The position numbers and the translations under genes are program-made. Source: Muricea muricata (taxonomy: Eukaryota > Cnidaria > Anthozoa > Malacalcyonacea > Plexauridae). From it: a stretch of 64,000 nt of DNA. Of the stretch, positions 1 through 64,000 are shown in pieces. Position 1 is the first letter of the stretch, and every line of letters starts with the position of its first letter. Below the pieces are notes generated by a model that was given only the letters and a program-made list of their open reading frames with translations, had not been told where the DNA came from and did no database searches. The stretch is from positions 186,001 through 250,000 of the forward strand of contig CAWLCR010000062.1 of assembly GCA_963855995.1 (NCBI GenBank), given 5' to 3'.

Positions 1-448
1 ATACGTCTCCCCAAGCGGCATGTAATTGCAGAGATAAACCAGAATGCCCATTGGATGGTGCATGCCTGACAAAAAGCATTGTTTATCAAGCAGAGGTGAA
101 AACAGGTGATGGTCAAACAAAACAATACATTGGAATACACCATGCATACACCATGCATACACCATGCATAAACAATCTTTTAGAAATTCAAAATACCGGC
201 AGCACTCTACGGCTTTGTCAAAACACATCTGGGAATTGAAATCAAAAGCTAAAAGCTATGAAATAAAATGGCCAATTATGAAACGAGCGAAACCATGCCA
301 GTCTGGGACAAACCACTGTAGTCTATGTACCCAGGAGAAATTGTGTATTATTAACGCAAACAAAGAAACACTGCTGAACCAGAGATCGGAACTAATCTCT
401 AAATGTAGACATGAAAACAAATTTTACGCATGTAATTATAAACCTTAA
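1..448 (+). pseudogene. PLE-A right copy, 3' part (Penelope-like GIY-YIG region)
   Basis: This is the C-terminal part of a Penelope-like retroelement protein, entering from outside the window. It keeps a cysteine-rich linker (CNCR then CPLDG) and the segment leading to the YIG motif of a GIY-YIG endonuclease. The frame then breaks in three tandem 11-base repeats (ACACCATGCAT) at 137-169 and resumes as a second frame ending with the family-typical RSELISKCRHENKF block. It is the same sequence as 12046-12493. The repeats replaced the stretch holding the conserved Arg of the GIY-YIG core, so no active nuclease is expected. Confidence 0.85.
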
Positions 449-460
449 ACATTCTAACAT

Positions 461-504
461 TTAGTCTGAAGATCGCCAACGAGCGTGAAACTCCGAGTTA
501 CTGA
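461..504 (+). ncRNA. Hammerhead ribozyme-like motif, type I (PLE-A 3' end)
   Basis: The core CTGAAGA (466-472) and GAAA (487-490) are both present. Stem I pairs 461-465 with 500-504 (five pairs, one G-U). Stem II pairs CGC 474-476 with GCG 483-485, but its closing pair is a U-U mismatch (473/486). Stem III pairs ACU 490-492 with AGU 496-498 over a three-base loop. Cleavage would fall after U499. Small type-I hammerheads with short stem III are known from Penelope-like elements, and this one lies just after the PLE coding end. Activity is inferred; the stem II mismatch may weaken it. Confidence 0.7.
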
Positions 505-584
505 CTCTTATTTAGCATTTTGTTATTTTTATTTCTTACCAAAATTAATGGTTCTTAACTGTAAATAGTCACTTATGTGCCACT

Positions 585-690
585 TATATATATATATATA
601 TATATATATATATATATATATATATATATATATATATATATATATATATATATATATATATATATATATATATATATATATATATATATA
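585..690. repeat. (TA)n microsatellite 1, A-type (no left palindrome arm)
   Basis: About 106 bases of uninterrupted TA. On the right it is flanked by GTGCCAAATTATTGTGAG and the rest of a 64-base segment. On the left it is flanked by CTTATGTGCCACT rather than the inverted copy seen in B units. Confidence 0.95.
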
Positions 691-1138
691 GTGCCAAATT
701 ATTGTGAGTCAATAGTTTTACGATTGTTTAAAATAAAATGTTTCTTCATGATCATAAGCATGCATTGCTTCTACTCCATGCGTTGCTATATACATGTTTA
801 CAATACTTGAAATGCCTTATGATTTTTGTCGGTAAAATATAGGTAACGTTACCACTGAAAATACGAAACGACATATCTTACATTATCTTCGCCAAGGAGT
901 TCCGACAACTCAGCTTCCCGTAGATCTCTGGTTCCATCACCTTGCAGCTATACATGAACATAGCAAAATGTAGGCCAGTCAGCACAATTATTAGATTGTA
1001 TAATAAAATACTAATAACATGACGCCTACTATAAGGCGTTCACTTCGTGCATTGCGATCATTTTTTGTACTGCTCAGGAGGCGTAAAAGTCGCTCACTGG
1101 CCCTTATGCCATGCAATGGTGACTGTGAAAGCCCCAAT
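691..1138. other. No gene recognised; short hairpins only
   Basis: The first 64 bases are the right arm of the palindrome that is complete in units 3 and 4. A short hairpin (GACGCC...GGCGTT) lies near 1021-1039. A 61-codon plus frame from 1019 is broken by a stop in B units, so I do not treat it as coding. Confidence 0.6.
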
Positions 1139-1401
1139 CACAGAGTAGAAATTACCAGAAGGTTCACTCTCGTCGAAACACGGCGCTTTTTCATATCAAG
1201 TTAAACAAGTGTAGTGCAGCTCGCTTCTTTCGATTCAAAAAACTCTTCACGTTAAAAATTGTGAAAATGATCATGCAGTATTAGTGTGATGAATGGAAAA
1301 TAACAATCCACTTGTTTAGGGCACTGGAACGAGCGCACCAAACTGCTTAAAGCGTGACTTGTGATTTAGAGTGAACCTTCTCGTTAATTTTCTATTCTGT
1401 G
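1139..1401. repeat. TIR element (MITE-like), ~263 bp
   Basis: Imperfect terminal inverted repeats of about 32-34 bases. The left end runs CACAGAGTAGAAATTACC into AGAAGGTTCACTCT; the right end is AGAGTGAACCTTCT into CTATTCTGTG. Internal segments around 1203 and 1308 are also partly inverted. There is no coding capacity and no clear target-site duplication, so the superfamily is unassigned. Confidence 0.6.
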
Positions 1402-60668: not shown

Positions 60669-60755
60669 CCACTGGTGGTCCACGGTGGAATTTGTTGTTT
60701 TCCTTGGTATAAAAACGATTTTTTCATGAAATTGGTTTTCGGTTTTTTAAGGTAA
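59829..60755 (+). pseudogene. PLE-A right copy fused to downstream non-coding DNA
   Basis: Same lesions as 11501-12493 up to IMKRAKP. The deletion junction at 60667/60668 then joins the frame to normally distant sequence, giving a chance tail (PLVVHGGICCFPW...) and a stop at 60755. RSELISKCRHENKF is lost. Confidence 0.8.
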
Positions 60756-60895
60756 AGTTTGCAGTTATTGTTCAGCAGTTGATGTTGCTTATTCTAATTA
60801 AATTTAAACATTTCTGGTATGTTATATACTGTTAAAATCTTCCGCTTTTTAAGAGTACTTTCAATTGGTTACCATCCTTGTATTTACATTGTGTA

Positions 60896-62281
60896 AGTCG
60901 TTGTTAATCTTATTTTCAATTCATGGACCTAGATTTGATCCTTGTGGTACACCACATATTATTTTGTTCAATTGTGAATTAATTCCTTGAACTATGCTTT
61001 TTTTGCGTTCTGTTATTTAAGTACGATTTGAATAGGCTAAGTGCAACACCATCAATTCCATATAATTGCAGTGTTGCCAAAAGAATTTCTTGGCTGATTG
61101 TGTCAAAGGCTTTTAAAGTCAAGAAATAAAACGCCATTTATCCATATTAAGTAAATACTGGTCTGTTATTTGCATAAGGGCAGTTTCCGTTGAGGGACAC
61201 TATCGAAAACCCGATTGTTGGTTGACAATAATATTGTTGTCATGCAAATAGGTAATTAACTTATCAGAAACGAGTTTTAGCTACTAGATTTCTGCAATTG
61301 CAGGTATCACGGATATTGGTCTGTGATCTGCACATTCACTATTGTCGTCAGCTTTAAAAACTGGCGTAACATTACTCTGTTTTAAGTTGCCAGGAAAAAT
61401 TGCAGTTTCTAAGACCAAGTTAAAGCTTTTTATTATATAAAGTACAGTGCTTTATAAGGATTTCGAGCACTGATAAAACTGATAATCTCACATGTTAGAT
61501 TATTTATGATAATTAACTTCACAGGTGAAAATTATCCCTTTTCAAACAATCACCAATCTTAGCTTCTGGGCATTTTATATTGGTGGAAAGCCGGTAGTGT
61601 ATATAATAAACAGGAAAATACATGAATGCTTGTATATACATGAGTTCTCGTGTAGAACATGATATTTCTCACTTGTTCGCTGCGCTTACTTGTGTGAGAT
61701 ATCATGTTCAACACTCGAAATAAATCTGCATGGTATTTCCGCGCACCCATGCATTATTCTCTATATGATTAATAATTATAGTGTTTTGCATATAGACTGA
61801 CCCGCAGCTTTTAGCAGTTTATTTGTAATTTTGTCATTTCCTGCTGACTTATCTGGTTTAATCTTGATTATGGCGTTAGTCAACTAATCTTCCGAGATTT
61901 TTTCAAGCTAAATTGACTGCAGCTTGGTTCAACATATTTAGGAGGGTCGAGATTATTGGTAGTTAACCTGTAGTTTCAGCTAGCTTAGGCCTAATCTCAC
62001 AGAAATATTTGTTGAATTCGTTCGCTATTTTACCAGGATCAGTGACTGTCTATGTGTCCGTCAACTTCGAGTTGAATTATAACTGTTAATAATTATCCTT
62101 GGTATTTTTACTGTTCTCCATTTTAGTTTTAAAGTAATGAGCTTTTGTGTTCCTTATTATTTTGCTAACTTGATTTCGGGATTTCTTATATGAGCTTGAT
62201 AGTATGTCGCGGAATTCAATTTTACTGCTTTCTTTCAATAGTTTTCGCATCCTCGTTTTTAGTCTTTACGATGTCTTTAAG
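60896..62281 (-). pseudogene. Non-LTR RT relic, unit 6
   Basis: Copy of 1700-3085 with B-type markers and a private G-to-A near 61084. Confidence 0.8.
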
Positions 62282-62290
62282 GTTTGCGAT

Positions 62291-62465
62291 GAGGTAGTAG
62301 AGAGGTTCAGATTTGGCTTCCAATACCTCTTACCGCTACTTTAATCTACCTTTCAGCCAATCAGATGCGCCAGATCTACCCGATTAACCAATCAATTTGT
62401 TTAAAAATTGGGAAAAGGCAGTCGTAGTGGTAGAGGAAGTCAAATCTAAACCTCATTAGCACCTC
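62291..62465. repeat. MITE with 31-bp TIRs, unit 6
   Basis: Copy of 3095-3269; the right end reads TAGCACCTC as in unit 3. Confidence 0.65.
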
Positions 62466-64000
62466 TGGTCGGTTTGTCGATAAGTTGTTGTAATGATAGA
62501 GGGGATGCAAAGATAATAGTTACAACGATACGAGGCGTTTTAACGAAAGAAATTTATAAGTGTTCAACCACACGGTAACTTTTATACTGTCAGTATAATC
62601 ATAAACGTGTCGTGTAACAAGAAACAAGAGTGATCTTATGTAACAGCCAAAAACACTAGGAAAAGTAGAACTTTGCTATTTCCTGTGCGGAGCGTACATT
62701 CGCCAAGGCACAAGTTTCACGGCGCCCTAAATCGAACCTGAAATACACCAAAGCTTAATATCATTTTGTTCTTCTTTCATCATACTGTAGCTTCTCAGAC
62801 TTTTTAACCGAATTGAGCATTCACTGGAAACCAGTCCTATTATAACTTGTTATATTTGTAAACTTCTTCATAGCATCATCATTCTATGATTATGTCATCG
62901 CCGCTCGTCACTTCAACAATCGGACTCACGACGGAGATGATTCATCAACGGTAAAATTAATGTTGTTTCTCTGGCTCTGCTGCCGAAAAAGGGATTCGGA
63001 ATCCGAGCCTTTCCGATAACAAGGAAAGATGATCATAGATATATTTCTGACGAAGGACGTTTAGAAGTAGCAACAAAATAGTTTCAGTTTGTATATGAGA
63101 AGTAGCAACAAAATATTTTCAGTTTTGTAATGAAAGAAAGCCCAATTCACGATGTCGTTGTATACAAATATTAATAAATGAAGTATTATAACTTACCAAG
63201 AGGTTAGGCTGTGTCCCAGCCATACCGAACCTATATAAAGAAAAACTGAAGACTCTGTATGAAACTATGAAGTATTATGTATGTTGCCCTGACACGCAGC
63301 AAACTAAACAAACGCACAAGCTTGCTGATGTTTTAAAAAGTAACCTGCATGCCTTGTAAGGAGAATCTCGTAACTTCATATTAGTTTATATATGGATAAC
63401 AGTAGCAATCAAATCTAAAATCTCCTTACCATGGCATAGCAACATATAGGGTAATTATTTACAAGAAATCGCCGGGTTCCTTTTATGCTTCAGAAAACAA
63501 CAAGAAACTTTCTGAGGATAATTTTTTTTTACTGTATGCGTATCTTGCGATAAAAAAGATGAGATAATAAATGTATGCGGATAGTGCAAGTTTGGTGAGT
63601 AGTTATGGTGCCGTGTGTACGTACATGTCTATCGTATGAAACAAATCTAAACTTTGAAAATATGTCACAATAACCTAGCTACAAACAGTACAACCTACTT
63701 GCAACGGTTATAATTAAAATTACAAATACCTTTTACTTTTATCTCGTATTGTGATCGGTAATTCGTTTAAAATAGAAACAACATAGGTGTAATACAAAAT
63801 ATCATAGTTTTTTGGCTGGCCATTTTCCCTCGCGCCCGTCTCAGTTTTACAGAAATACGGCCAGCTCGCTGGCTACCCTTCCCCTTGCAATATTTTCTAT
63901 AGATCGAAAAATGTTTGTGGCAATTGCTCGTGACATGACATTCCCATTCAAATCTGTTTTTAGGTCGAGTAATTAATAATTTATTTCTAATAATCATGGC
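62466..64000. other. Intergenic stretch of unit 6, no gene recognised
   Basis: Equivalent to 3270-4804. It contains the 17-base palindrome and the 35-base direct duplication; the window ends before the foldback element and the gene. Confidence 0.6.

Follow-up and report, generated by a model that had tools for sequence, protein, structure and literature searches.

Apparent recent amplification and homogenisation of a gene-bearing 12-kb tandem array in the genome assembly of Muricea muricata

Is a long run of nearly identical, gene-bearing repeats in a genome assembly a real chromosomal array, and if so, by which processes have its units been kept alike? The question is raised by a stretch of 64,000 nucleotides (hereafter the window) of the Muricea muricata assembly, positions 186001-250000 of contig CAWLCR010000062.1 (C60), in which direct copies of a 12-kb unit carry a predicted gene and inverted pairs of retroelement fragments. 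From the analyses presented here, the locus appears to be a real, recent and homogenised gene-bearing tandem array, belonging to an already known kind. The probability that it is a chromosomal macrosatellite, recently amplified and homogenised by unequal crossing-over and/or gene conversion, is estimated at about 0.85.

Results

The window is filled by five full units and part of a sixth (5.3 units), all on the plus strand, i.e., by kilobase-scale units in direct head-to-tail order, as in a gene-bearing tandem array or macrosatellite. Borders were placed by an 11-bp landmark, and the phase of unit 1 is arbitrary. Unit 1 occupies 1..12045 (12045 bp); unit 2, 12046..24094 (12049 bp), with 5 private columns of single-nucleotide variants (SNVs); unit 3, 24095..36217 (12123 bp), with a variant head, here called type B, and a palindromic TA tract; unit 4, 36218..48337 (12120 bp), also with a type B head; and unit 5, 48338..60373 (12036 bp), with 11 private SNV columns, some of them within microsatellites. 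Unit 6 (60374..64000, 3627 bp) is cut by the window end and has a private deletion of ~1.17-1.25 kb at ~60667, where the joined places have about two bases in common, as in end joining. At least one private SNV was found in each of the six units. Both window ends fall inside the array, which extends past the window on either side.

Counts of the offsets between identical 24-mers peaked at 12.03-12.13 kb and its multiples, far above chance, and pairwise identity was 99.72-99.94% of aligned bases, gaps excluded, in all 15 unit pairs. Differences in unit length are mainly due to TA tracts and to ~70 bp adjoining one of them. The identity includes non-coding DNA: an interrupted AT tract (9351..9590 in unit 1) recurs in all five full units, its period unchanged and 91% of positions matching. 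The initial annotation, which had described at least 5.3 direct copies filling the window and a near identity reaching even microsatellite interruptions, was correct in both respects. Neither Rfam nor a tRNA scan gave a match anywhere in the window.

The assembly comprises 453 Mb in 74 contigs. C60 is 257,000 bp long, and after 4.9 kb of non-array DNA (C60:1-4858) the array runs from C60:4859 to the last base. A whole-genome protein search with the last exon of the gene, described below, gave 32 matches, which represent 30 loci, since two loci were split into two rows. All of them are confined to C60 or to 5.65-5.79 Mb of the chromosome-sized contig C2: 21 lie on C60, two in array units of C2, and seven are older, diverged copies on C2. 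In this search, counts of repeats and large families are lower bounds, and the assembly thus has at least 23 array copies. The array units of C2 are on the minus strand, from 5,713,309 up to a 200-N gap at 5,741,590-5,741,789. The right end of C60 and the gap edge of C2 are oriented alike along the unit (unit-phase positions 11816 and 15092). Within the 140 kb of C2 examined, the left flank of C60 had no match above about 91%, and its last kilobase is 88-91% like the surroundings of an older copy at 5.772 Mb. C60 most likely belongs in the 200-N gap of C2, because the C2 array runs into this gap, the orientation of the free end of C60 matches, and the seven older copies adjoin the array units of C2.

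The array units resemble each other far more closely than they resemble related copies elsewhere. With microsatellites excluded, array stretches diverged from unit 1 by 0-0.93%, compared with about 4-9% for the older C2 copies, including right at the edge of the C2 array. The array edge at C2:5,713,312 is sharp: with the register kept, divergence is 0.23% on the array side, then 8.6% and 4.0% beyond it. A four-gamete test was applied to 19 informative sites in 16 segments, which came from 15 units on C60, on C2 and in the window; 28 of the 171 site pairs were incompatible, which requires at least 3 exchanges. Among 2000 simulations without exchange, incompatible pairs appeared in 20, with at most 15 in a run, and the observed 28 was never attained. 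Provided that the assembly phase is correct, exchange among units is indicated, and expansion and inter-unit exchange both seem to have been at work. The recent amplification or homogenisation that had been proposed for the window is thus supported by the rest of the assembly.

A variant of possible bearing on exchange is the type B form. In unit 3 (24683..24926) it consists of a TA tract (24749-24860) between 66-bp inverted arms, the end of the right arm being deduced, and the same form occurs in unit 4 near 36806-37051. A plain TA tract stands at this place in units 1, 2 and 5. Among the matches listed, type B was also present in at least three other units of C60 and at least one of C2. Its form looks like a template-switch event that has spread among units.

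The gene lies on the minus strand. In unit 1 its last exon, of 233 codons with a stop codon (8098..8799), is followed by AATAAA signals and preceded by a pyrimidine-rich AG acceptor; the other copies in the window are at 20145-20846, 32268-32969, 44393-45094 and 56434-57135. Over a 418-bp GT-AG intron (8800..9217) it joins in frame an upstream exon of 69 bp (9218..9286), recognised by its frame and its splice signals, an AG acceptor and a GTAAGT donor. The gene is presumably transcribed and spliced as these predicted exons indicate. The joined frame, counted from an in-frame ATG of the upstream exon (9235-9233), has 239 residues and is unbroken in all five full units, which differ in it by a single silent change, in unit 2. 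In 200 first-order random units the longest open frame was 182 codons, and none reached 233; the only frame in the real unit that is longer than the exon (297 codons) lies inside the retroelement block.

The upstream exon was recovered in three of the seven older copies, with 2.5 kb upstream searched (<0.4 kb for one). All three keep the AG and GTAAGT signals, their frames read as open, and their lengths differ by multiples of three, a pattern that hints at coding sequence and at a further part of the gene upstream. The upstream exon may therefore be internal, with the 5' end of the gene further up, possibly beyond the retroelement block. A complete protein of 239 residues, with its start in the upstream exon, was considered and dropped, as the ATG is not conserved in two of these three copies. 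The initial claim of one intact gene per unit is thus borne out in part: the two exons recognised are unbroken, and the gene may have a further part upstream of them.

The last exon is open in all 23 array copies; 20 of them encode the query protein itself, and the remaining three differ from it slightly (98 to nearly 100% identity). Against three older full-length C2 copies, it gave ratios of nonsynonymous to synonymous substitution (dN/dS) of 0.26, 0.23 and 0.28, with crude p values from 0.0013 to 2e-7; the 81% copy at C2:5793283 was left out of the comparison. The gene family appears to have been under past constraint; within the array, too little time has passed for constraint to be judged. 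Frameshifts were seen in two older loci. The gene tree gave strong support for one of eight inner branches and did not firmly group the C60 edge copy with the other array copies.

Searches of Pfam and PDB, with the gene alone and together with five older copies, gave weak coiled-coil matches only. The best Pfam match was TACC_C (16.8 bits; cutoff 29.9), and a TACC coiled-coil protein was rejected as an identification on this score. These weak resemblances point to a coiled-coil-like product; as a guess, a charged coiled coil would fit a structural or scaffold role. No relatives of the last exon were found in viral contigs, prokaryote genome contigs or phages, collections which say little about an animal gene.

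Next to the gene lies the retroelement block, bordered on the left by the interrupted AT tract and on the right by a TA tract (12630..12737, in unit 2). Retroelement pair 1 (9607..10252) has inverted arms at 9607-9841 and 10018-10252, which are 97.9% alike, with their 3' ends outward. Pair 2 (10393..12616), which spans the border of units 1 and 2, has inverted arms at 10393-11162 and 11801-12616 that are 91-96% alike, around a self-inverted centre at 11191-11741. Pair 1 was found in five of five units; of pair 2, the minus-strand arm was found in all five and the plus-strand arm in full in four, the deletion having truncated the remaining one. Outer arms mismatch by 2.1% in pair 1 and 3.7-5.9% in pair 2 (2-9% with gaps), and units differ by <0.3%. 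Because the arms differ far more than the units do, the insertions predate the amplification, and the inverted pairs are older passengers. In one older unit (C2:5,687,963-5,688,463), TA tracts with some other DNA between them occur at the matching place without the pairs, which suggests insertion into a microsatellite; in the stretch shown, two other older copies had neither pairs nor a long TA tract.

The fragments are presumably derived from Penelope-like elements (PLEs). The five fragments scanned had no PLE domain in Pfam, i.e., neither the Penelope-type reverse transcriptase nor the GIY-YIG endonuclease. The two PLE pairs per unit of the initial annotation are thus borne out as recurrent inverted pairs, and their family name lacks a Pfam match. 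The order is head-to-head in both pairs of the unit and in four of four other loci of the family, which were picked because they had already been seen as pairs. Within the pieces fetched, these four loci were accompanied by TA tracts on both sides in three cases and on one side only in the fourth, a hint, from picked rather than random loci, that the family prefers TA microsatellites. By title, no publication on retroelements targeting TA microsatellites turned up, which is a weak negative. Relatives of one retroelement fragment were absent from viral contigs.

Several other elements were observed. Outside the window, the AT tract of one unit has a private insertion of ~5 kb (C60:118064-123070) with an open reading frame for an RVT_1 reverse transcriptase (Pfam) and another, tyrosine-recombinase-like, below the Pfam cutoff, a combination found in DIRS-type elements. 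The unit at C60:81-85 kb is rearranged: a retroelement segment occurs there repeatedly, with a 0.8-kb unit piece (6318-7115) in between. In unit 1, a 448-bp inverted repeat at 5423-5870, with arms ~82% alike, is possibly an old miniature inverted-repeat transposable element. Three fragments on the minus strand (1786..3069) look like remains of a decayed non-LTR (long terminal repeat) retrotransposon; RVT_1 was matched below the cutoff (E=0.023) for 1786-1941, and the other two fragments had no match.

Discussion

The array is best explained by the following course. Within an older cluster of diverged gene copies, two inverted retroelement pairs would have inserted into a TA microsatellite of one unit. 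Recent amplification would then have multiplied this unit in direct orientation, and unequal crossing-over and/or gene conversion, presumably through meiotic or sister-chromatid recombination, would have kept the copies alike. A benefit from gene dosage is possible.

Several points weigh against this explanation. The evidence for the array comes from a single assembly, and about 159 of the 257 kb of C60 (1-60, 80-90, 108-126 and 186-257 kb) entered the unit comparisons. The simulations assumed a constant-size tree and 16 complete rows, and the real rows are in part partial, two of them being pieces of one unit. Sites that resemble one event (417, 418 and 421) recur in several of the 28 incompatible pairs, and 3 exchanges is therefore the safer figure. 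Within half of the unit circle fell all 16 shared variant columns of the window but only 12 of the 21 private ones (p=0.005-0.008); as the sites are partly linked, this clustering gives weak support for conversion tracts. Likewise, the match of A/B phase in five of five cases, with a chance of 1 in 10, is suggestive only. As for the gene, the upstream exon was not found for four older copies within the stretch searched, and the supposed start ATG is ATC in two of the three that have this exon. The dN/dS values were 0.60 for a truncated older copy and 0.86 for the C60 edge copy, neither of them significant, and all p values come from pairwise Fisher tests on Nei-Gojobori counts, which are crude and not independent of each other.

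The most obvious alternative is an assembly artefact, in which one or a few real units were multiplied or both haplotypes were strung together. It could account for the fact that C60 is unplaced and ends in the middle of a unit, and its round length of 257,000 looks like a scaffolding cut. However, multiplied copies would not be expected to have private SNVs in each of six units, the private deletion in unit 6, the private ~5 kb insertion and the rearranged unit elsewhere on C60; C2 has array units of its own that end in register at older DNA, and 23 copies could not be explained by two haplotypes alone. An artefact is thus considered unlikely. About as unlikely is an amplification without later exchange, by serial duplication or by rolling-circle copying and reinsertion, after which variants were merely inherited down a tree. 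Some neighbouring units are indeed most alike (1-2 and 3-4), as such a history would predict, but incompatible pairs were far fewer in the runs without exchange than among the real units, and the type B units, at least six among the matches listed, are scattered along C60 and C2.

Two further alternatives concern the means of amplification. It has been proposed for Penelope in Adineta vaga that such elements carry genes between their inverted ends, and in the sections considered here PMC3846280 links them to the growth of host gene families. The two inverted pairs beside the gene in each full unit would suit a role of this kind. On the other hand, the array units are direct neighbours instead of being scattered, the arms of the retroelements far exceed the array in age, and the older unit with TA tracts shows no pairs, while the older gene copies were duplicated anyway; the retroelements are improbable drivers, even more so than the two preceding alternatives are improbable histories. 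The least probable of all is an extrachromosomal circle or an array derived from one, which the initial annotation had raised. Direct head-to-tail order is the product expected of a circle or its integration. Nevertheless, the array is joined at C60:4859 to a linear, non-array flank, and its C2 edge runs in register into older copies, which speaks against a circle. A chromosomal array that was amplified recently and homogenised by exchange remains the preferred interpretation.

The nearest known case is the TSPY array of the human Y chromosome, which, in the parts of PMC3924835 relevant here, is described as homogeneous 20.4-kb units in 20-40 copies with a gene in each, accompanied by a separate single copy and pseudogenes; the protein is constrained, and most of the array was a gap in the reference described. 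The present array is similar in its homogeneous tandem gene-bearing units, its copy number, the related copies outside it, its apparently constrained protein and the reference gap. It differs in the unit length of 12 kb and in a different protein without a family match. In coral genomes, according to the portions of PMC10236652 drawn on here, many old tandem gene clusters exist and gene conversion was judged to be very rare. The old copies at C2:5.65-5.79 Mb, with their diverged non-coding DNA, are similar to such clusters. However, the 23 near-identical copies, including the intron and intergenic DNA of the units compared, are not. Should the animal be a coral or closely related to corals, as the resemblance of its retroelements may hint, the rarity of gene conversion would not hold for this array. 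The head-to-head order of the retroelement pairs is also the most frequently observed inverted form of Penelope in Adineta vaga (PMC3846280, in the part considered). In contrast to that system, only fragments are found here, bordered by TA tracts and probably passengers rather than carriers of genes.

A more far-reaching suggestion is that a lineage-specific coiled-coil gene is held at no fewer than 23 near-identical copies by selection for dosage together with active homogenisation, as an invertebrate counterpart of TSPY. This is tentative and rather doubtful. If true, such homogenisation would occur in an animal group in which, from what PMC10236652 says in the portions used, conversion is reported to be very rare. 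An old gene cluster shaped by birth and death would stand beside a young homogenised array, probably at one locus, and long-read assemblies now reach hard-to-assemble arrays of this kind. The edge of the array is a place where it could be measured how sharply homogenisation stops, and the array itself is one in which to ask whether selection for dosage or nothing but recombination maintains so many identical genes.

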